The translations under genes and the position numbers were made by a program. 12,320 nucleotides of DNA, from NCBI GenBank assembly GCA_020433785.1, contig JAGRCC010000539.1, forward strand, positions 1-12,320, given 5' to 3'. Of the stretch, positions 132-12,320 are shown one piece after another. Positions within the stretch are counted from its first letter, which is position 1. Every line of letters begins with the position of its first letter. The notes under the pieces were generated by a model that was not told where the DNA came from, ran no database searches, and saw nothing but the letters and a program-made list of their open reading frames with translations. This DNA is from Anaerolineae bacterium (GTDB lineage: Bacteria > Chloroflexota > Anaerolineae > 4572-78 > J111).

Positions 132-3023
132 TTACTCCTCAATAACCTGACCATCAGCATCTACGACCACTACCGGGCCGATCTCCTCAAGTTGGGGTTC
201 GACCTCCTCGGCGTTGCCGACGACGACGATAAGGGGCGACTCAGTATCGATGTATTTGGCCGCGGCTGTGAGGGCGTCATCAGCGGTTACGGCTTCCAAG
301 GTGGGGAGATAGTCGTTTAGCTCGTCAATCGGTACGCCGGTCAGGTAACGGTTGCTGAGTTGATCGGCGAAATCGGCCGGGTCTTCGATGCGCAGGGCAA
401 AGTTGCCGATCAACAGCCCTTTGGCATCGGCCAGTTCGGCCTCGGAGATAGGCTCGGTGGTGATGCGCTCCAGCTCGGCCAGAATCTCGCGGATGGCGTC
501 GCCGGCGTGGGCTTGATCGACATCGCTCAATACCCGGAAGGTACTGATATCGTTGGGCCGGCCAAAGCGGCTAAAAATACCGTAAGTATAGCCCTTGTCC
601 TCCCGCAGATTATCAAACAAGCGTGACGAAGCGCCGCCGCCCAAGACCGAGTTGACCACAGTCAGGGCGTAGCGATCGGGGTTACGAGCGTTGATGGCCC
701 GGTTGCCGATTTGAATGGTCGCTTGCTCCGATTCGGGCCGGTCCACCAGGTAAATCACCGAGGTGTCGCCGACTTTGACCTTCGGATAAGCGAGGTAATC
801 GGGGACGTCGCCTTCAGGCCAATCCCCAAAAACGCGCTCGGTTTGAGCCTGAACTTCCTCCAACGTCGTATCGCCGACAGCAACCAGCAGTGCATTATTG
901 GGCTTAAAGTAAGTTTCATAATAATCGATCAGATCGGCCTGGGTTAAAGCGCTGACCGTTTCCGGGGTTGTGTAGTAACCGTAAGGGTGATCGACATAGG
1001 CGATGCGGCCAAACTGGCGATTGGCCAGGGTATTGGGATCAACGTCGTCCTGTTCCAGAAAGGTCAGCGTCTGCTCACGGACCACCTCAAGTTCCTGCTC
1101 CGGAAAGGTGGGGTTGAGCGTCATATCTTGCAGCAGATCGAAAGCCAGGTCGGCGTCTGTGCTTAGGGCATTGACCGACAGCGACAGCCACTCCAGCGAG
1201 GCGCTCGAACTAACCGAGCCGCCGACCGCCTCGATCGCCTGAGCGATCTCTGCTGCGGTGCGATTCTGGGTGCCTTTGGTCAGCAGTTCGGCCACAAAAT
1301 CGGCCACTCCCTGTTGATCGGCCTCAGCCGCGGCCGTGCCGCCGCCAACGTACAACTGCAAGTTCAGCTTCGGCACTTCGCTTTGCTCGACAAAGATAAC
1401 TTCCAAGCCATTGTCCAGGGTAAAGGTTTCAAACGGCGGAAAGTCGGTCTCGGTGATGGGCAGCGAGGCTGGAACTTCGGTACGAGTGATGATGCCTTCG
1501 GGTAATTCGGCCAGCACCTCATCGGTCAGGTCCAGGTCGAGCAGGTCCGAAGCCGGCTCGTCGCTGACTTTGACCTCAACCGGCTCGACCAGCTGGCCGG
1601 GATAGTCGGCCAGCTTTTCCTCGCCGTCGGGCAGCGTGATGAGGATGTTAGCCGGTTTGTCGCGCAGATAGATGGCGGCCACGCGCTCGATGTCCGCCAG
1701 AGTGACGGCTTCGTACATGTCCAGTTCCTCGATCAAGGCGTTGGGATCGTTGAAGTTAAGCACCGCATCCTGAATCGACTCGGCTGTACTTAGGGCCGAG
1801 GCGCGGAAACCGGTGATAGCCCCAACCAACAGCCGGGTCTTGACCCGATCGAGTTCCTCTTGGGTGACGCCCTCATCAATAACAGCGTCAAATTCGGTGC
1901 GAATCAAATCGGCGACGGTATCGACCGAGTCGCCGGCGTTGGGAAAACCACCGGCGTACAGAATGCTCGCGCCCAGGTAATCGACCAGGTTGGTAAAAGC
2001 CGAGGCCGCTGCCCCTTGGCGAACGATGTTCTGCTCGAAGCGGCTGCTGTCGCCGCTGCCTAAAATATCCATCAGTAAATCGAGCGCGTAAAAATCGGGC
2101 GTACCGCGCGGCGGGCCAACCACGGTCATCACGTAGCGGGGCAGCTCAACCTGCGGGTCGATCAGCGTCTCTTGATAACCGAGGGCGTAGCCGTCAGGCG
2201 TGGTTTCAGTTATGGGAAATTCATCCGGCAGGGGGTACACGTCGGTAATCAGCGGCAGCGGTTCGCCGGCGGGAATATCGCCAAAGTAGGCTTGCACCAG
2301 CTCTTGGGTCAGCTCAACATCGATATCACCGACAATCACCAGGGTGGCGTTGTTGGGTTTGTAATACATCTCGTGAAAATCTTGCAGTTCGTCCAGCGCG
2401 GCGGCCTTGAGGTCATCCGGGCTGCCGATGACTGAGCGCTCGTAAGGCACGTAACCCTGGAAGGGCAAGGTCAGTAGCCGGCGGCCGGAGACGCCGTAAG
2501 GCTGGTTAGCGACGCGCTGGTTATACTCTTCCAGCACCACGTCACGCTGCGTTTCAAACGCCTCTTGATCGACATCCAGCGAGGCCATGCGGTCGCTCTC
2601 CAGCCACAGCACGCGCGGCAGTTCGTTCGATGGCGCGACTTCCCAGTAAGCGGTCTTATCGGCGGCGGTGTAGGCGTTATTGTCCGCCCCGATGGCTTCC
2701 AGATAGGCGTGATACTCGTCGTTGCCAACGTTAGCCGAACCTTCAAACATCATGTGCTCAAACATATGGGCAAAGCCAGATCGCTCCGCCGGATCGTTAG
2801 CGCCGCCCACGCGGTACCAGATATCGACGGCTACCACCGGCGCGGAGTGATCTTCGGCCAGAATCACGCGCAAGCCGTTCGGCAGCGTGTAATCGACCAG
2901 ATCGAGCGCATAATCTTCAAAATTGATGGTCTCGACATCGCCCTCTTGGGCCAGCGCCGAGCCGGTCAAGGCGGCGCTCAATAAAATCATCATTGCCAGC
3001 AGAACGCCGGACTTTTTTAGCAT
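132..3023 (-). CDS. Secreted two-domain M16 family zinc metallopeptidase
   Basis: This 963-residue protein is a pitrilysin/processing-peptidase-type (M16) zinc protease, expected to degrade or trim peptides outside the cytoplasm. Residues 1-25 form a signal peptide: KK, a hydrophobic core, then ALA before Q26. The start ATG at 3023 is preceded by a strong GGAGGAGA ribosome site. Domain 1 (about 38-480) carries the inverted zinc motif HxxEH at 86-90 (H86, E89, H90), with the distal glutamate ligand at E165 or E166, about 75 residues later as the family requires. An acidic linker (about 485-530) leads to domain 2 (about 533-955). There the aligned motif is degenerate (D575, A578, E579), but the Arg/Tyr signature SRLF...GYTYG (R801, Y814) is present. 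One active and one inactive half in a single chain is the normal M16 plan. The gene is probably monocistronic, since a terminator lies upstream. The substrate is unknown. Confidence 0.96.
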   Translation of the reverse strand: MLKKSGVLLAMMILLSAALTGSALAQEGDVETINFEDYALDLVDYTLPNGLRVILAEDHSAPVVAVDIWYRVGGANDPAERSGFAHMFEHMMFEGSANVGNDEYHAYLEAIGADNNAYTAADKTAYWEVAPSNELPRVLWLESDRMASLDVDQEAFETQRDVVLEEYNQRVANQPYGVSGRRLLTLPFQGYVPYERSVIGSPDDLKAAALDELQDFHEMYYKPNNATLVIVGDIDVELTQELVQAYFGDIPAGEPLPLITDVYPLPDEFPITETTPDGYALGYQETLIDPQVELPRYVMTVVGPPRGTPDFYALDLLMDILGSGDSSRFEQNIVRQGAAASAFTNLVDYLGASILYAGGFPNAGDSVDTVADLIRTEFDAVIDEGVTQEELDRVKTRLLVGAITGFRASALSTAESIQDAVLNFNDPNALIEELDMYEAVTLADIERVAAIYLRDKPANILITLPDGEEKLADYPGQLVEPVEVKVSDEPASDLLDLDLTDEVLAELPEGIITRTEVPASLPITETDFPPFETFTLDNGLEVIFVEQSEVPKLNLQLYVGGGTAAAEADQQGVADFVAELLTKGTQNRTAAEIAQAIEAVGGSVSSSASLEWLSLSVNALSTDADLAFDLLQDMTLNPTFPEQELEVVREQTLTFLEQDDVDPNTLANRQFGRIAYVDHPYGYYTTPETVSALTQADLIDYYETYFKPNNALLVAVGDTTLEEVQAQTERVFGDWPEGDVPDYLAYPKVKVGDTSVIYLVDRPESEQATIQIGNRAINARNPDRYALTVVNSVLGGGASSRLFDNLREDKGYTYGIFSRFGRPNDISTFRVLSDVDQAHAGDAIREILAELERITTEPISEAELADAKGLLIGNFALRIEDPADFADQLSNRYLTGVPIDELNDYLPTLEAVTADDALTAAAKYIDTESPLIVVVGNAEEVEPQLEEIGPVVVVDADGQVIEE

Positions 3024-4231: not shown

Positions 4232-4975
4232 TTAATAGTTTCCATTACGTTGGGCTTCATGCGAGGCCATCAGCGGCAGCGAATGAATGGCGTCCACGCC
4301 GCCGAGCATGAGCGCCATTTGATCCGGTTTTTGTTTGAGACTGTTAGCCAAAATCACTTCATTGAGCAATCTGACCAATTCCGGAACCGGATAGCTGCGC
4401 AGAACCTCTAATATCGATTCGTCGTGCTTAACATCGTACATGGTGTGTTTGAACTGCGGCGGAGCGATCAGTTCTTTGAGCAATATGCCGTTATGCTTTA
4501 GCGGGGCCAATCCCAAGGGACGCAAGGTGGCGGTTAAATAAGCGGCCAGATTTTTCTCCATCAACATCATCGTTACATCGTTCGATAATGCCTCGGACCC
4601 GTAGCGAACGACCAACCGGCGCAACCCTTGATTCGTATAGTCACGAACTATAATCTTAAGAAGGTTCTCATCAGCGTTAACCAGTTGGGCGGCCGCGTTT
4701 TTTAGGGCGGCATCCGGTCTAAAGGTAAATAGAACGGTCATCTGAATGGTAAACGGGATGTTGTCGCAGCTTAGCATCTCCGTGAAGTAAAAATCGCCGA
4801 CATAGATGCCCGTTTTAACGATCTTGAGCGGGCGCTCGATAATCGGGACGATCCAGCTCAAACCGGGCGGTTTGATGCGATGATAGCGTCCCAGCCGCAT
4901 CACCGGCGTCACGTGATTATCGGGCGTAAAAATAAAACCGAATAATCCTATAAACCAAAGTAATAGCCTTGTCAT
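4232..4975 (-). CDS. Short membrane-anchored SPFH/Band-7 domain protein
   Basis: This 247-residue protein has one N-terminal membrane segment (about residues 3-17, LLLWFIGLFGFIF). An SPFH (stomatin/prohibitin/flotillin/HflK-C) domain follows at about 22-172. The family pattern is visible: LGRYHRIKPPGLSWIVPIIE near 28-47, the CDNIPFTIQMTVLFTF strand block near 70-85, and RDYTNQGLRRLVVRYGSEAL near 111-130. Such proteins form oligomeric scaffolds or cages on the inner membrane that organise proteases or lipid domains. This one is short: the long Ala/Glu coiled-coil arm of flotillins and HflK is absent, replaced by about 60 residues with two predicted helices. The start ATG 4975 has an AAGGAGACG ribosome site, the same sequence used by the 40-residue gene upstream. 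No adjacent NfeD or FtsH partner is present, so its client is unknown. Confidence 0.85.
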   Translation of the reverse strand: MTRLLLWFIGLFGFIFTPDNHVTPVMRLGRYHRIKPPGLSWIVPIIERPLKIVKTGIYVGDFYFTEMLSCDNIPFTIQMTVLFTFRPDAALKNAAAQLVNADENLLKIIVRDYTNQGLRRLVVRYGSEALSNDVTMMLMEKNLAAYLTATLRPLGLAPLKHNGILLKELIAPPQFKHTMYDVKHDESILEVLRSYPVPELVRLLNEVILANSLKQKPDQMALMLGGVDAIHSLPLMASHEAQRNGNY

Positions 4976-5029: not shown

Positions 5030-5152
5030 TTATGGGGCGTCGTCGCGGTGAGTCAGTTTAGCAATGATAAAAATGATGCTCACAGCTCCAACCAACCACG
5101 CCGTAAAGATAATCCATAAAAAAATCCAAACATTGAGCGTAATGTCATACAT
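5030..5152 (-). CDS. Small single-span membrane peptide, 40 residues
   Basis: This is a small ORF read on the minus strand from ATG 5152 to the TAA at 5030-5032. A polar start (MYDITLN) is followed by one hydrophobic stretch at about residues 8-31, with three tryptophans and an LVGAVSIIFIIA core, then a charged tail KLTHRDDAP. This is a classic single-pass membrane microprotein. Support for translation: an AAGGAGACG ribosome site lies just before the start and is identical to that of the SPFH gene 54 bases downstream. The composition of a lipid-spanning helix flanked by charges is also unlikely in random sequence. It probably leads the SPFH operon and may be an accessory subunit of the SPFH assembly. 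The family is not recognised. An opposite-strand ORF overlaps it but has no such support. Confidence 0.72.
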   Translation of the reverse strand: MYDITLNVWIFLWIIFTAWLVGAVSIIFIIAKLTHRDDAP

Positions 5153-5481
5153 GAGCGTCTCCTTCATCCATAAATGCTGTCAGTTGACCGCTGACTGCCG
5201 CCAGGCTATTTCACCAAGGGTGACATACCGCCGGCTGCTGCTAGATTTTTAATAAACAACGCAACTTTGATGTAATTAAAGTATATCGGAAAAAGTTAGA
5301 GGGGAATGGACAACTTCATGTCAGAATACCAATAGTTTGAGGCTCAACTCTGTCACGAAGCTACCATTTTCTGACAATCGATAAGATAACAGTCACTTGA
5401 ACAGGTTATAAAGGTTGATTGGCCGATAAAGTGACTGTCACCTGCAAAAAATATGGAGGATAAAGAAATACGCCGCAAAAA
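5153..5481. other. 329-base intergenic region between the regulator and the SPFH cluster
   Basis: This gap is A+T-rich and holds no credible gene on either strand. It should contain the end of the kinase/regulator transcript and the promoter of the SPFH cluster. The part near the regulator stop contains a spaced inverted repeat and a short palindrome, listed separately. A TATACT hexamer on the minus strand (5285-5280) could be a -10 box for the cluster, but the only TTG-like -35 (TTGTCC) sits 22 bases away, so the promoter call is weak. Small GTCAG/CTGAC and TCACC/GGTGA hairpins occur in the presumed leader (about 5175-5225). No clear intrinsic terminator follows the regulator. Confidence 0.5.
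5389..5441. promoter_or_regulatory. Spaced inverted repeat with GTGAC-T-GTCAC palindrome; candidate operator
   Basis: ACAGTCACTT (5389-5398) and AAGTGACTGT (5429-5438) are perfect 10-bp inverted copies, 30 bases apart. The right copy is part of an 11-bp odd palindrome, GTGAC-T-GTCAC (5431-5441). A further CTGTCAC half-site lies at 5350-5356. Spacing of about four helical turns between the arm centres (40 bp) would suit two dimers on one DNA face. The site lies downstream of the regulator gene and upstream of the SPFH cluster, so it could control that cluster. It has no U-tract and so does not look like a terminator. Confidence 0.35.
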
Positions 5482-7440
5482 TCATTCCGTGGCCGGATGA
5501 CATTTGAGAATAAGCCGATAACCCACGCCTCTGATGTTTTCGATGTATTGGTATGAGTCATCGCCGTCCGGTTGCAGTCGATCGCGCACTCGTCTGACTA
5601 AACTTTGAATATTATTGTAATCGCGCAATCGCTCATAATCGCCCCACACGCCTTTGCCGATCATGGCAAACGTACAGAGCGAGTCCCGGGGCTGCTCCAC
5701 GGCCTGGCGATACAACACCGTTAACAATTTGTATTCCGTTTCGGCTAAGGTGAGCCACTGGCCTTCGAGCCAGACATCATAGCCTAACTTCTGCTCATCG
5801 AGCCAGGGACTGTGCGGTTTATCGTATTGGGGCGGGTCGGGGCTGAGATTGTGGCAAATTTCCCGCGCGGAGTCCAGGGCATGCAAAAAACGGGCCAATT
5901 CACTGCTGCGGTAGTAAATCTCAGGCTCATAGCCATTGATGACCTTAAGCGTGCGCAGCAGCAGCCCGATTTGGTACAACGACCGCGAGTAATTCAATTT
6001 TTGGAGGGCGTACCACCGTATGTGACGAATAACCGTCAGCGCTTTTTGAATTTCGGGGTTCAAATCAACCGAATCCGGGTCCGTTTCCGCCTCGACCTCA
6101 GCTAGCAGATATTCTTCCAACTGCCGGCGTTCATGATGCGGCAGGTCGCCGATCAAGGTGAATTTCACCAAAATTTCCAGATCGATGAAATCTTGAAGCA
6201 GCGGGCCTTGGCTAAGCCCCCCAAAGTCGATTAACCACGACCGGTCTCGCCAATCAACCAAAATCGTGTCGCCGCTCAGGCGTTTATGGGTGACGCCGTA
6301 TCGAATTGAAGCTTCAATGGGAATAGTGCCCTCAATTAAGCCGATCAACAGCGTTAGGGACGTGTCATCGAAGCGGGGCAAATTATTCACCAACGCGTGG
6401 GTCTGAAGGGCGTTAATGCGCCCGGTCAGCGCCGATGGCGCCAGGATCTCGTGCTCGTTAAAGAAATAAGCCCAAATCACAGCCACAGCCGAGTCAGTTT
6501 CTTCGAATTTTACATTCTGTTGGTGATAGCGAGCCAAGGTGCGGCCAAATAGCGTGGTTAAAACCGCCACAATCTTTTCGGGCGAGTTGTACCGGTAAAA
6601 TTCCGCCAACGGCACCACCTTTTCCAACTCAGCGTCGGTTAACGTGTAGGCCACAGCCGCATAGCGTGTGGTTTCAATTCGTTGTTTGAACAATTTGGCG
6701 GTTGCGCCCTCGGTGGCCATACGGGGCGCAAATTTTTCGTGAGATTCGTCTTCGTCTTGGATGGCCCGGCGCAAACCGCAGGTCACCACCAATCGAACCG
6801 GCACGCTTTCCGGGAAAAAGGAAAAAACAGCCAGCGTCACTTTATGATGACCGGCCGCGATCAGTCGATGCAGGTTGATTTGCCGGCTGCGATGGAAAAG
6901 GCAGCAAAACAGATCGTCTAATTCGTCAATCCGGGCCGGCAGCAGCTCATTATCAAGGTCCGGCTCGATTAACGTCACCAGATGGGCCAGCGACACCAGC
7001 TGATTTTGATCACGGCGGATATCGAGCTGCCAGTTCAGGCGAACGTGTTCGTTAAACACGCGCTCGACCGCTTCTAGAATCGCCTCAATCCCTTCCGCCT
7101 TGCCGATAAAATTTACGGCCGGCGGCAAGCTATCCAGGCGCGGGCCTAACGCTTCGCGGGCCAATTCAAAACTGGGGTGAGCCGTTAAGATGATTTTGGG
7201 AATAGGCCGGTACGCTTCTTGCTGGGCCAACAGTAACCCGCTAATATCCTGCCCATCGTCATCATCTTCCATCCGGATATCTAAAATGATCAAATGCACG
7301 TGCTGCGCCGCCAGTTTGGCTTCAGCCTCAGCTAGTGAGTAGGCGCGATAAACCCGATAATCGGCGGCTTCGAGTAAACGGGCGTGCACATCAAGATAAC
7401 TGGCTGAATTATCAACGAAAAGAATACGCTTCTGTTTCAA
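5482..7440 (-). CDS. Response regulator: receiver, kinase-like (probable pseudokinase) domain, OmpR-type winged helix
   Basis: This 652-residue transcription factor is paired with the upstream sensor kinase. Residues 1-125 are a receiver: phospho-acceptor D54 in IILDIRM, D10 in the acidic pocket, T86 and K114. Residues about 200-500 resemble the aminoglycoside-phosphotransferase/kinase-like fold, including a motif block at 384-406 (THKRLSGDTILVD...WLIDF). Aligned with the usual HGDLHxxNILVD...IDF, the catalytic Asp is R387 and the metal-binding Asn is T392, while the second Asp (D405) remains. The N-lobe lysine position also appears changed (T220). Residues about 547-648 are an OmpR/PhoB winged helix (LTLAETEYKLL, NNIQSLVRRVRDRL, IRGVGYRL). 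Typical family members are about 230 residues, so the insert of some 400 is exceptional. The start is TTG at 7440, overlapping the kinase stop (TTGA), with AAGGTGAG upstream, implying translational coupling. Confidence 0.9.
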   Translation of the reverse strand: MKQKRILFVDNSASYLDVHARLLEAADYRVYRAYSLAEAEAKLAAQHVHLIILDIRMEDDDDGQDISGLLLAQQEAYRPIPKIILTAHPSFELAREALGPRLDSLPPAVNFIGKAEGIEAILEAVERVFNEHVRLNWQLDIRRDQNQLVSLAHLVTLIEPDLDNELLPARIDELDDLFCCLFHRSRQINLHRLIAAGHHKVTLAVFSFFPESVPVRLVVTCGLRRAIQDEDESHEKFAPRMATEGATAKLFKQRIETTRYAAVAYTLTDAELEKVVPLAEFYRYNSPEKIVAVLTTLFGRTLARYHQQNVKFEETDSAVAVIWAYFFNEHEILAPSALTGRINALQTHALVNNLPRFDDTSLTLLIGLIEGTIPIEASIRYGVTHKRLSGDTILVDWRDRSWLIDFGGLSQGPLLQDFIDLEILVKFTLIGDLPHHERRQLEEYLLAEVEAETDPDSVDLNPEIQKALTVIRHIRWYALQKLNYSRSLYQIGLLLRTLKVINGYEPEIYYRSSELARFLHALDSAREICHNLSPDPPQYDKPHSPWLDEQKLGYDVWLEGQWLTLAETEYKLLTVLYRQAVEQPRDSLCTFAMIGKGVWGDYERLRDYNNIQSLVRRVRDRLQPDGDDSYQYIENIRGVGYRLILKCHPATE

Positions 7441-10400
7441 TGGGCGCTCACCTTTGGTCGGTCAATCACGGTTGTTTCCACCGGCAGCGTAATCACCACG
7501 GTCGTGCCCCGGTCGGTGGTGGTATCGATGTCAATATCACCGCGATACGTTTGAAAAATCGTCTTGGCCAGCATTAAACCGATGCCGGAGCCTTTACTGC
7601 CCTCCGGTTTGTCGACTGGTTGTTTAAATAGCTTGGTGCGCAGCGATTCCGGAATACCGGGGCCGGTATCTTCGATCAATACCTCAATTTTCCGATCGAT
7701 CAGGCGGGTGGTCAGCGTTATTTGCTGTTCCGGCGAATTGGCCAGTTCCATGGCGTGAACCGCATTATCAATGATCAATTCAAAGCCGCGCCGCAGCCAT
7801 TCCTGGCTGGCCCGCACCGTGGCCACATTATCCAGGTCCGTTGCCAGGTTTAATTGTAAAGCGACCGCTTGATACCGGATTTGTCGCCAGCGACGTTCCA
7901 AATAGGTTCTGATGGTTTCATTTATCCGCAAGGAGTTGATCGCATCCTCGTACGACAGCGGCGCGGTAATGGGAATATCTTTGATGCCATTAATCACCGC
8001 GTCTAACTGTTCGAGCTGCTGCTCGATTTCCGCCGTTTGCTGGGCTTTGGGCAGCAGCGTTTTCAGCCAAGCCACATGCCCCTTGGCCGTGCCGACTTCA
8101 CGTTTGATATTGTGCCCCCAGGTCGTGCTGACCATCCTAATCCAATCCACCGCCGTGTGCGTGCCGATAAATCCTTTGATCTGCTTCATTTCTTCGTATT
8201 GGCGGGCTCGATCGATGGCCACGGCAAATTGGCCGGCTAAAATCTCAAGCAGCGCGATTTCTCGCTCAGAAAAGTGTTTGGGCGACTTACTGCGAACACA
8301 CAGCGCGCCGATAGCATCATTTTGGCTTAAAAGCGGCACGCCCAAGAGGGCGCGGTAGCCTTGCTGAGAAAGGACGGGATTAGCCTGGGTATTTTGTTGA
8401 GTATCCACAATAATAACGGGTTTGCGTTGTTCAATGATTTTTCGAGTAAGACCATTGGTTCGAACTTGGGGCGAGTAGAGCTGTAGCCCCTGATGGACAT
8501 TAACTTTAAACCCGTGCGTAATTTCCTCCTGTTGAGCATCCCAAAATAAAACACCGCCTTCATAGGTATCGGTCAGTCTTATGGCCTCAGTTAGAACCAG
8601 TTTCAAAACCTCGCTAAGTTCCGACGTGCCGGCCAGCGATACGGCGACTTGCCGCAAAATATTGGCTTCCTTTAGCTGTTCCGTGGTGTCCTGATACAGT
8701 TGGGCGTTAATAATGGCGTTGGCCAACTGATCAGCCATAATTTGCAGCGTAGCCACATCCTCATCGCCCCAATCGCCGAACGACGTGCTTTGCACATCGA
8801 GTACGCCGATAACTTCGCCGCGCACCATCAGGGGAAAGGCCATTTCGGCTCGGGTCAGCGGCAGCGTCGGAATATAATGAAGGTCGCGGCTGACATCGGG
8901 AGCCAGATGGGCTTGGCCTGATTGAGCCACCGTCCCAATAATTCCTTGGCCAACGGCTAATGAATAGCCCCCATTCAACCGGGCTCTGTTGGCCGGATAT
9001 ACGGCCTGAAGTTCAAGCCGTTCCCGTTTTTTATCGAAAAGAAACACCCCGGTATGATAAAAGCCAAAACTACCGGTGATCAACCGTCCGGTTTCAGTCA
9101 ACAGCTTGTCAATCTCCAAAATGGCCGTCGTATGCCGGGCTACTTGAGCGGCGGTACTCAACAGTTTGGCTTTGCGCTGTGTTTCTTCAAATAAGGCGGC
9201 ATTTTGAATAGCAACGCTGGCCTGGTCGGCTAACGCTTCCAGCGCCCGCAGATGTTCATTATCAAAGGCGTGGTAACGATGGTCTTCGACATCAATCACC
9301 CCGATGACCCGCGCGCCGGATTTGATCGGCACCGCGATTTCAGAACGGGTTTCGGGATCATATCTGATATAATGTTCGTTCAACGTCACATCGTTAACCA
9401 AATGCGATTTTTGCCGGGTCGCGGTAAGGCCGACAATCCCAATTCGGCCGTTTTGAGATAAATCGATATTACCAATCGATTGTTTCAGTCGTTCCAAATG
9501 ATTGGGCGGATAGGCGGCTACAAACTGGAGTTGACGATGATTAAGCCGGGCCAGATGGCTTGAGCGCGTCCCCCCGGTCAATTGACAAGCCTGCCGGACA
9601 ATAATCGACAGCACTTGCCCGGAATCCAGCGTACTATTCAACGCCTGACCGGCTTCATACAGCGTTTCCTGAATTCTAACCCGTTTCTCAATCCGTTTGA
9701 AGAGCTGCGCATTGCGAATGGCCACCGCCGCCTGATTGGCAAACAGTTTGATATTATTGAGCTCATCATCGGTAAAACTGTGGGGGCTTCGATAACTAAC
9801 AATAAGTACCCCCACTTTTATGCTTCTAACCGTCAGGGGCAGCCCGACCGAAGAGCGAATTCCTTCGGATTTAGCAAACGTATCGTTCATAATCGCATCC
9901 GCGCCCCGATTTTCGGCGATATGAAGCCGGTCAAGCGCTAAAATTCGATGGATCGTCGATTGTCGGGATTGGCCTGCGGCTGAAATTTTATGACTATATC
10001 TGACGCCGATCATGGTCTGCGGGAAATCGAAATCGTCGGTTTCCGGGTCAAAGGGATACAGGGTGACCACATCAGCGCCCAGAATATCTTGGGTTTGTGT
10101 CACAATGGCTTTAAGGGTGCTGGCTAAATCGCCCACCACGGTAACCTCGGCTACCGCGCGCGCCGCGTTGCGCGTTTGCCGCACCTGTTCCAATAACTTC
10201 GCATTTCTCAGCGCCAAAGCCGCGTGATTGGCAAACAGCACCGCGGCCTCATATTCTCTATCTGAGAAATCACGCCGATTTTCAAAGTTAACATACAGCA
10301 CACCCAGCGACTCGCCCCCCACGCGCAAAGAAATGCCCTGAAAACTTTGCGCTTTAATTTGCTCCAGAAAACGATGAGTGGTTTTGCCCAAAAAATGGTA

Positions 10401-12320
10401 ATTTTCCCGGTCCGAAACATTTTTGACCCCCACCCAGGCCGTCTCCATAATGGTGTGGGCTGTACCGCCCTGGCGAGGCTCTACTTTTTGAAATAGGTTC
10501 CAAGAATCGAGCGTGATGCCGTCAGCCACGGCTTTTTCTCGCAGAAAGCGATTTTGGGCGGCATCGTACGGCAAAATGACAGCGGAGTCGGCGTGCAGCA
10601 CTTCGCGGGCGCTGCACACGATTTGTTTCAAAACATCTTGCAAACTGGCCACCCCGGCCAACGCTTCAGCCGCGCGGCGCATATATTCCAGCTCTTTTAT
10701 CCGCCGGGCGCTGTCGAAAGCGATGGCGGCTTGATTGACGTAGAGTTGCAGGGCTTCAACTTCGGCTTTAGCGAAGCGGCGAGGCTGATTATAATGAATC
10801 CACATGACCCCAATCCGCTGGCCTTCAACCGCCACCGGAAAACACAAGGCGGCCTTGATATTGGGCGAAAAGACGCTGGGATTAATCCGGTGCTGTTCCT
10901 TGGCTACATCTTCGATGACGGCATAATGGCCGGTCTGCATCACTTTCATCGAAAGCCCCTTGGGCCGGATAACATCCTTGATATCAACCTGCTCATCCGT
11001 GCCCACGCTCACCTGCCGCAGTGGATCGCTCAAAATCAGGCTGGCGCCATTGGCATCGGCGGCGACGCAGGCCAATTCCAAAATATCACGCAGCACCTTA
11101 TCCGAATCGTGCGATAATACCAAAGCATTGCTCGCTTCGAAAAAGGAACTCAATCGTTCGGTCGCCACCCGCGTTTCATGCAGCAGCCGCGTATTATCGA
11201 TGGCGATAGCGGCCGTATTGGCAAAAGTTAAGATTAATTCAATCTCGGCTTCATTAATGCCGGCCCGGGTAAACTTATTGTCGGCCACTAAAACGCCAAT
11301 CGGTTGGTCTCTGGCCCATAGGGGGACCACAATGAGCGGTCGGGCCGGTTTAAAGGCCTCCACAAACGCAGCGGGTACGCTCTGGGGCGATGTCTCCGTC
11401 AGCAGCACATAGTTGCCCTGCAACACCGCTTGCGAGAAAACATCGCCGCCGATAGGGTCTACCGGCAGCTGTAACCGGCGAGTATGATCATTGATCGGCG
11501 TTGACGGCAATTGATCGCCTTCCAGCGCGCTCAAAAATTGGGCAAAATCCGGCAGCCCTTCGGCTACGGCTTGTTCCCAGTCGGCGTGGGCCGCGGCGGG
11601 GTCGATGTGGCCGATGCCCATCCGTCCCACCAAATTTTCGCGCGATTCGTCTAATAAGAACAAGGCCGCCCGATTAAACCCCAACCCGTACCCGGCCGTG
11701 ACGCCGGTCAGCACCACGTGCAATATTCGATCTAAATCTTGCGACGCCTGAATATAATCGCTAATTTTATGCAGCACATCCAGCTGGGCCGCGTAATGTT
11801 TAACCGCTTTGTGCGCTTCCGAATTGCCCACGGCAATGGCCACCTGATTGGCAAAGGTTTGGCACAATTCCACCTCCTCCGAGGTAAAATGGCGCGTCCG
11901 GCCAATGGCATCCAGGCTAAACGAGCCGATCACCCGCTCTTGCAGCACCATCGGCACAATTAAGATCGATCGGATATCAAATCGCTCGAACACCGCCCCC
12001 ACCGGCCCCAACGCGGCTTTATCCGTTATTTCCGACAAAACTATCGGCTCCCGGCGGGCAATCAACCGCTCTTCCAGCGCAACCCCTTTAACTTGGATCT
12101 CGATGCCGTTGGTGCCGATGGGCGGGTACTCGGCTGTCACCCGGCCGCGCTCATAATGCGGCGCATCGAACAACACCAGCCCGCTGTGGTCGGCTTTAAT
12201 CAAATCGACCGCGGCCTGGCACACTAGCGCCAAAATCTTATCCACGTCCAACGTTGAATTGAGCGACGTAGACACCCGCTGAATAACTTCCAGATTGCGC
12301 GCCCGCCGCTCGGCTTGCTG
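7437..12320 (-). CDS. Multi-GAF sensor histidine kinase (5'-partial, runs off the window)
   Basis: The frame is open to the right edge: codons before the GTG at 12275 read QQAERRARNLEVIQR, a coiled linker typical between GAF domains. The true start is therefore outside the window and 1627 residues are visible. Counting from that GTG, eight GAF domains lie at about 1-150, 170-360, 375-522, 532-692, 705-855, 870-1025, 1038-1192 and 1202-1355. Each ends in a repeated FANQ/ADQ-AxAIxNA-type helix. The kinase core follows: probable phospho-acceptor H1388 in WGHNIKRE, N-box N1504 (IIDNAVHAM), G1 box DTGPG (1536-1540), G2 box GSGIGL (1562-1567). No membrane span is seen, so it is probably cytosolic and senses ligands, redox state or light through its GAF domains. 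It presumably phosphorylates D54 of the regulator encoded immediately downstream, with a 4-base overlap. None of the GAF domains shows an obvious, decisive chromophore cysteine. Confidence 0.93.
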   Translation of the reverse strand, partial: QQAERRARNLEVIQRVSTSLNSTLDVDKILALVCQAAVDLIKADHSGLVLFDAPHYERGRVTAEYPPIGTNGIEIQVKGVALEERLIARREPIVLSEITDKAALGPVGAVFERFDIRSILIVPMVLQERVIGSFSLDAIGRTRHFTSEEVELCQTFANQVAIAVGNSEAHKAVKHYAAQLDVLHKISDYIQASQDLDRILHVVLTGVTAGYGLGFNRAALFLLDESRENLVGRMGIGHIDPAAAHADWEQAVAEGLPDFAQFLSALEGDQLPSTPINDHTRRLQLPVDPIGGDVFSQAVLQGNYVLLTETSPQSVPAAFVEAFKPARPLIVVPLWARDQPIGVLVADNKFTRAGINEAEIELILTFANTAAIAIDNTRLLHETRVATERLSSFFEASNALVLSHDSDKVLRDILELACVAADANGASLILSDPLRQVSVGTDEQVDIKDVIRPKGLSMKVMQTGHYAVIEDVAKEQHRINPSVFSPNIKAALCFPVAVEGQRIGVMWIHYNQPRRFAKAEVEALQLYVNQAAIAFDSARRIKELEYMRRAAEALAGVASLQDVLKQIVCSAREVLHADSAVILPYDAAQNRFLREKAVADGITLDSWNLFQKVEPRQGGTAHTIMETAWVGVKNVSDRENYHFLGKTTHRFLEQIKAQSFQGISLRVGGESLGVLYVNFENRRDFSDREYEAAVLFANHAALALRNAKLLEQVRQTRNAARAVAEVTVVGDLASTLKAIVTQTQDILGADVVTLYPFDPETDDFDFPQTMIGVRYSHKISAAGQSRQSTIHRILALDRLHIAENRGADAIMNDTFAKSEGIRSSVGLPLTVRSIKVGVLIVSYRSPHSFTDDELNNIKLFANQAAVAIRNAQLFKRIEKRVRIQETLYEAGQALNSTLDSGQVLSIIVRQACQLTGGTRSSHLARLNHRQLQFVAAYPPNHLERLKQSIGNIDLSQNGRIGIVGLTATRQKSHLVNDVTLNEHYIRYDPETRSEIAVPIKSGARVIGVIDVEDHRYHAFDNEHLRALEALADQASVAIQNAALFEETQRKAKLLSTAAQVARHTTAILEIDKLLTETGRLITGSFGFYHTGVFLFDKKRERLELQAVYPANRARLNGGYSLAVGQGIIGTVAQSGQAHLAPDVSRDLHYIPTLPLTRAEMAFPLMVRGEVIGVLDVQSTSFGDWGDEDVATLQIMADQLANAIINAQLYQDTTEQLKEANILRQVAVSLAGTSELSEVLKLVLTEAIRLTDTYEGGVLFWDAQQEEITHGFKVNVHQGLQLYSPQVRTNGLTRKIIEQRKPVIIVDTQQNTQANPVLSQQGYRALLGVPLLSQNDAIGALCVRSKSPKHFSEREIALLEILAGQFAVAIDRARQYEEMKQIKGFIGTHTAVDWIRMVSTTWGHNIKREVGTAKGHVAWLKTLLPKAQQTAEIEQQLEQLDAVINGIKDIPITAPLSYEDAINSLRINETIRTYLERRWRQIRYQAVALQLNLATDLDNVATVRASQEWLRRGFELIIDNAVHAMELANSPEQQITLTTRLIDRKIEVLIEDTGPGIPESLRTKLFKQPVDKPEGSKGSGIGLMLAKTIFQTYRGDIDIDTTTDRGTTVVITLPVETTVIDRPKVSAH

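Follow-up and report, generated by a model that had tools for sequence, protein, structure and literature searches.

A response regulator with a putative TCAD9 pseudokinase of predicted APH fold between its receiver and its winged helix

What can a kinase-fold domain do when it lies between the receiver and the DNA-binding domain of a response regulator? The question is raised by a gene of an Anaerolineae bacterium (GenBank assembly GCA_020433785.1, contig JAGRCC010000539.1), of which we analysed a stretch of 12,320 nucleotides, called the window below. A sequence-only reading of this DNA had described the product as a response regulator with a degenerate kinase-like middle part, and had suggested that this part is a pseudokinase used for ligand sensing or allosteric transmission. 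As judged from titles and the openings of abstracts, we found no account in the literature of a receiver joined to its DNA-binding domain through a pseudoenzyme of kinase fold.

The regulator and its three-part layout

The regulator is encoded on the minus strand by an open reading frame of 652 amino acids, which had been placed correctly at 5482-7440. It starts with a TTG at 7440, and this choice is backed by the five nearest homologues, which have their Met in the same alignment column. Three Pfam families matched above their cut-offs: Response_reg at residues 6-100 (40.4 bits, cut-off 30.2), TCAD9 (PF19974) at residues 381-481 (42.6 bits, just above the cut-off of 40) and Trans_reg_C (39.2 bits, cut-off 26.2, profile positions 3-77 of 77). 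The last match bears out the OmpR-type winged helix (wHTH) that had been seen at the C-terminus, and the second, which exceeds the curated cut-off and covers only the C-lobe (positions 297-403 of the 429 in the profile), bears out the guess that the middle domain is TCAD9-like. With a phosphorylatable Asp in its receiver (REC) and a Trans_reg_C wHTH, the protein is an OmpR-family response regulator. None of the 25 NCBIfam families listed for it reached a cut-off.

The same layout recurs in other proteins. We found at least 37 homologues among the 7991 database candidates that were scored, which were those sharing the most words with the regulator. Our alignment has 36 rows, the window protein and 35 of the 37 homologues, and all 35 have the identical three-part layout at 30-78% identity, TCAD9 having been precomputed for most of them. 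Because 35 aligned homologues carry it, the layout is more than chance.

The receiver had been called complete. Its four key residues are indeed in place, and they are almost invariant in the 36 rows (D54 in 36, D10, T86 and K114 in 35 each); D54 is also present in all 60 of the wHTH-type receivers aligned. The domain is not fully textbook, because Asn11 stands where the acidic pair normally has its second member. This replacement is found in 53 of the 60 REC-TCAD9-wHTH receivers, and in 5/17 of the REC-TCAD9 proteins without a recognised wHTH. An Asn at residue 11 (codon 7408-7410) may change metal binding or the lifetime of the phosphate.

The full-length regulator was modelled with a mean pLDDT of 85.8. 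Receiver matches filled the fold-search list of this model, and for this reason we folded the middle domain alone. The model of residues 131-545 (pLDDT 91.5, pTM 0.90) gave PDB matches that are kinase-fold, and its predicted fold is bilobal and APH-like. This is the outcome on which the sequence-only reading had staked itself beforehand. The size given there, about 300 residues, was too small, as the domain has about 400.

Matches at 1e-20 or better occur in 23 of the 396 genomes of a relative's class, some of them without a wHTH, and single loci come from metagenome-assembled genomes labelled Proteobacteria (L002) and Blastocatellia (L004). A phage or plasmid origin was considered and set aside, as tblastn gave no match for the whole regulator in a plasmid collection or for its TCAD9 part in a phage collection. 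PADLOC gave nothing for the regulator beyond a weak match at the level of the receiver (SduA, 1e-4), and nothing at all for the kinase, the Band_7 protein and a 148-aa protein. No known RNA element exceeded its Rfam cut-off.

Table 1. Features of the window, with residue counts in three groups of TCAD9 proteins
Feature	Positions	Strand	Basis or counts
Receiver domain (residues 1-132); D10, N11, D54, T86, K114	7045..7440	-	Pfam Response_reg; D54 conservation
TCAD9 domain of predicted APH fold, putative pseudokinase (residues 134-541)	5818..7041	-	PF19974, model, PDB matches
OmpR-type winged helix (residues 562-643)	5512..5757	-	Pfam Trans_reg_C
T220 codon, at the beta-3 Lys place	6781..6783	-	K in 31/31 without REC, 15/17 REC-TCAD9, 0/61 REC-TCAD9-wHTH
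R387 codon, at the catalytic Asp place	6280..6282	-	D in 29/31 without REC, 16/17 REC-TCAD9, 1/61 REC-TCAD9-wHTH
T392 codon, at the metal-binding Asn place	6265..6267	-	N in 30/31 without REC, 16/17 REC-TCAD9, 21/61 REC-TCAD9-wHTH
D405 codon, DFG-like Asp, retained	6226..6228	-	D in 29/31 without REC, 15/17 REC-TCAD9, 52/61 REC-TCAD9-wHTH
Multi-GAF histidine kinase, 8 GAF matches and HATPase_c	7437..12320	-	Pfam, open frame
Band_7/SPFH gene, downstream of the regulator	4232..4975	-	Pfam Band_7; tblastn over 34 loci
Unannotated 40-aa one-helix microprotein	5030..5152	-	DNA match to L001 and translations

Catalytic residues across TCAD9 architectures

We gathered TCAD9 domains in homology searches and in Pfam scans of the relatives' genomes and aligned 109 of them; 27 rows that were duplicates, fragments or unanchored had been discarded before residues were counted. 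We distinguished 61 REC-TCAD9-wHTH proteins, 17 REC-TCAD9 proteins without a recognised wHTH (two of which, L021 and L084, run off the fetched DNA) and 31 TCAD9 proteins without REC, which are mostly the best Pfam matches of each search and are thus biased towards intact motifs. The counts in Table 1 are not independent, since the sequences are related and one identical pair was kept among the 61.

The window protein has T220, R387, T392 and D405, as had been read from the sequence, so that only the last of the four residues of an active APH-type kinase is present. The earlier alignment to the kinase motif proved exact: the Lys, Asp, Asn and Asp of the other architectures fall at columns 220, 387, 392 and 405. 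The second outcome that would have spoken against the sequence-only reading, homologues with intact catalytic residues elsewhere, was thus not seen. All four are intact in 29 of the 31 proteins without REC. The five intact REC-TCAD9 proteins that were scanned all pass the Pfam cut-off of the APH profile (23.2 bits) with 25.8-39.2 bits, whereas the window protein scores 15.4.

In the wHTH group the Lys is gone throughout and the catalytic Asp survives once. Residue 387 varies between R, Q, T, S, N, H, I and others, with no single replacement, and the nine domains that have lost D405 have E, Y, N, H or G instead. Three proteins are exceptions. P0005 has the REC-TCAD9-wHTH layout and still shows HGDL..N..IDF, the Lys being the only one of the four that it lacks. 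P0024 has no recognised wHTH, yet it has lost all four residues. L084 has lost only the Lys of the four and has Leu for F406; no wHTH was seen in it, and its frame runs off the contig.

We tabulated the alignment columns enriched in Lys, Arg, Asp, His, Glu or Asn and found no substitute Lys in the N-lobe. The sole column with at least 70% Lys is K466 (43/61), which lies in a helix of the C-lobe and is also common in the intact relatives (12/15 and 12/31). Relocated catalytic residues were therefore rejected as an explanation.

Loss is not confined to the catalytic residues. Twenty-four positions are at least 85% conserved in the 46 intact domains. Five of them (G196, P207, K220, D387 and E488) have all but disappeared from the wHTH group, with retention of at most 2%. 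A Fisher test on the 24 gave no significant excess of losses at the four catalytic positions (p = 0.13). E230, Y265, F406, E422, R475 and Y489 are fold residues that persist in the wHTH-fused proteins. The wHTH group also has conserved residues of its own, such as R170 (50/61). Beside the lost Lys stands C221 (codon 6778-6780), present in 53/61 wHTH-type and 0/46 intact domains; it may have a redox or structural role.

We placed these changes on a quick maximum-likelihood tree, built with the catalytic columns excluded and without bootstrap. One branch (SH-aLRT 100, length 0.8) holds all 61 wHTH proteins together with P0024 and L084, and it sits both beside and among the receiver-TCAD9 proteins. 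K220 needs a single change, at the base of the wHTH clade, and thus loss of the Lys marks the wHTH lineage. D387 needs four changes and N392 eleven, which are not single clean loss events. Taken with the predicted kinase fold, the loss of catalytic residues across the lineage, with P0005 (lacking only the Lys) as the exception, supports the earlier proposal: to judge from sequence and model, the wHTH-type TCAD9 domain is probably a lineage-wide pseudokinase.

Neighbouring genes in the window and at related loci

A histidine kinase gene adjoins the regulator gene, as in a two-component system, and its stop overlaps the regulator start by 4 bases. The kinase frame is open to the end of the window, and its true start probably lies outside. 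The histidine of its W-x-H motif (H1388, codon 8112-8114) is invariant in the 22 aligned cores. Of 33 related loci, 30 encode a kinase core upstream on the same strand; it is either the adjacent gene or set apart by one or two small receiver genes. At the other three (L003, L012 and L104) the sequence stops short of an upstream kinase, and for the L104 gene a partial match was seen at an edge (L076). GAF domains of the relatives' kinases were Pfam-checked in L001, L005 and L099.

In 8 of the 33 loci a tandem-S1 query hits the gene that precedes the main kinase, and Pfam confirmed S1, receiver, GAF and HATPase domains in the three that were scanned (L001, L005 and L014, the last from outside the 33). 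These histidine kinases, which combine a pair of S1 RNA-binding domains with a receiver and GAF (L001 1708-4002, L005 2008-4362, L014 2565-4991), stand upstream of the multi-GAF kinase, and they may sense RNA.

Between kinase and regulator, 9 of 23 wHTH-type loci have a gene that joins a receiver to an effector-like domain. It is REC-TIR in L002, a receiver with a two-TM TRADD-N-associated domain (REC-2TM) in L003, L004, L005, L007, L012 and L013, and REC-EAD7 in L105 and L108. The other 14 have no effector gene there: 11 have small receivers only (L006, L008-L011, L102, L104, L106, L107, L109 and L110), and three (L001, L103 and L111) have nothing, like the window, inside which there is no effector gene. 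The receiver fusions of the relatives comprise CAP12-PCTIR TIR, CyanoTRADDas_TM, EAD7 and CHAT. Neither the recurrent pairing of kinase and regulator nor these conflict-type genes had been noticed in the sequence-only reading. Locus L105 encodes both a TCAD9-EAD7 protein and a receiver-EAD7 protein (911-2986 and 9883-10500), possibly a homotypic pair of the kind that the idea of EAD coupling predicts.

At ten loci the TCAD9 protein has no wHTH. Four of these (L115, L116, L117 and L119) have a separate downstream wHTH gene with an ATPase-like part, for which STAND/AAA matches were below cut-off in the two that were Pfam-scanned. Some REC-TCAD9 proteins are themselves fused to ATPase/STAND-like stretches, below the Pfam cut-off. 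A TCAD9 protein with SIR2 (SIR2_2), ThsA-like by PADLOC, occurs in L019/L116, and REC-CHAT occurs at one locus, L114.

Downstream of the regulator the window and L001 share a cassette. It consists of the microprotein, the Band_7 gene, which is 70% identical, and two genes that match no Pfam family, at 58% and 76%. The microprotein, which is too short for the list of open reading frames, is conserved in sequence and place (L001 12242-12364). Band_7 also follows in L108 and L110 (38-39%), in each some 0.2 kb past the end of the regulator gene. The order regulator, then Band_7, is thus shared by 3 of the 34 loci searched (L001, L108 and L110). The cassette may be a target operon or a partner of the regulator. 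Upstream of it 6 of the window's 11 TGWCAG sites cluster at 5177-5440. In L001, 3 of 7 lie within 12102-12137, with a total no higher than in shuffled sequence. One pair, spaced by 20-21 bp, is common to both. As the pattern was picked after the alignment had been viewed, it is a lead only, and we regard the cluster as candidate binding sites of the regulator. A sigma-70 scan gave no more matches than shuffles did. Elsewhere in the window (132-3023, minus strand) lies a gene for a 963-aa double M16-type peptidase-like protein, which matches the models YfmF and YfmH with scores under the cut-offs.

A model for the regulator and its place among known systems

Building on the architecture, the predicted kinase fold, the Lys and Asp losses and the recurring histidine kinase neighbourhood described above, we think it fairly probable that this OmpR-type regulator uses its APH-fold TCAD9 pseudokinase, set between receiver and wHTH, as a non-enzymatic transmitter or docking platform. 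The upstream histidine kinase would phosphorylate D54. The state of the receiver, possibly together with a bound nucleotide or partner, would then be passed through a rigid pseudokinase to the winged helix and alter DNA binding. As the relatives suggest, the ancestor may have been a catalytically equipped REC-TCAD9 protein, accompanied at some loci by a separate ATPase-like wHTH gene, and fusion to the wHTH would have gone along with the loss of catalysis. The pathway may be an alarm or conflict response, as other receivers at such loci carry TIR, 2TM or EAD7.

The middle domain may sense a ligand or transmit allosterically, as was suggested at the outset. It is possible, though we consider it rather unlikely, that the domain binds a nucleotide or small ligand as a sensor, so that occupancy of the pocket gates DNA binding alongside receiver phosphorylation. 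The predicted kinase fold is kept, as are D405, E230 (54/61) and an Asp, Glu or Asn at 391 (54/61). However, ordinary ATP binding is argued against by the loss of K220 in all 61 domains and of the conserved beta1-beta2 turn residue G196 (retention 0.0), and D405 itself is replaced in nine. Kinase-fold proteins with rearranged chemistry do exist, SelO and WNK among them, and the firm retention of D405, E422 and R475, together with the group-specific C221 and R170, would fit an active enzyme of that type. We consider this very unlikely, given an N-lobe without substitute Lys, a K466 that belongs to the C-lobe and is shared with intact relatives, and a residue 387 that varies. That the domain is a decaying, functionless insert in an ordinary two-component regulator, its conflict link incidental, seems scarcely credible to us. 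The catalytic residues do drift freely and the window has no effector gene, but 61 proteins have kept the domain almost in full, even distant ones with 30-40% identity, all of them retain E422, R475 and Y489, and REC-effector genes recur at the nine loci.

We prefer the transmitter or docking platform, and we read the regulator as the arm that supplies the transcription factor in a two-component branch derived from TCAD9 conflict systems. We can extend this, with considerable doubt, to the loci as a whole: they might form a distinct two-component conflict class in which kinases, some with tandem S1, phosphorylate several receivers at once, namely a TIR/2TM/EAD7/CHAT/SIR2 set and a TCAD9 set. 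The TCAD9 domain of the window's lineage would then be a dead, wHTH-fused gauge that watches a partner or an invader factor and sets the transcription of the response. The family is a tractable case of an enzyme turned into a signalling part because catalytically equipped sister proteins survive, sometimes in the same genome (L001 and L099 are both in G001). Here one can study how an enzyme may have become a signalling part when an output was fused in cis.

The window protein shares with OmpR/PhoB-family regulators the receiver and the Trans_reg_C wHTH, and differs from them in the putative pseudokinase of about 400 residues between the two and in the D-N form of the acidic pair. From APH-like kinases such as APH(4)-Ia, methylthioribose kinase and maltokinase it differs in that the catalytic Lys and Asp are absent and the APH profile stays below cut-off. 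It resembles TCAD9 (PF19974) in its profile match and in the conserved F406, D417, E422, R475 and Y489; where it has REC and wHTH, two of the four Pfam-scanned TCAD9 proteins without REC have Pkinase and one has Clp_N. TCAD9 is a label tied, in the portion of the source available to us, to vWA-MoxR-VMAP systems (PMC10910872), and no Pfam match to MoxR, vWA or a third ternary component was found in the five window proteins scanned. In the available portions of Kaur et al. 2020 (PMC7159879) and its 2021 follow-up (PMC8195603), APH-related kinases are effectors of NTP-dependent ternary conflict systems, and histidine kinases are absent from, or independent of, the receivers. The likeness to such systems lies in TCAD9 here and in EAD7, TIR, 2TM, CHAT or SIR2 at some related loci. 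The difference is that the receivers described there come without histidine kinases, whereas the loci described here are built round histidine kinases and receivers. Unlike in those portions of the two accounts, TCAD9 and EAD-type conflict modules are now placed beside histidine kinases.
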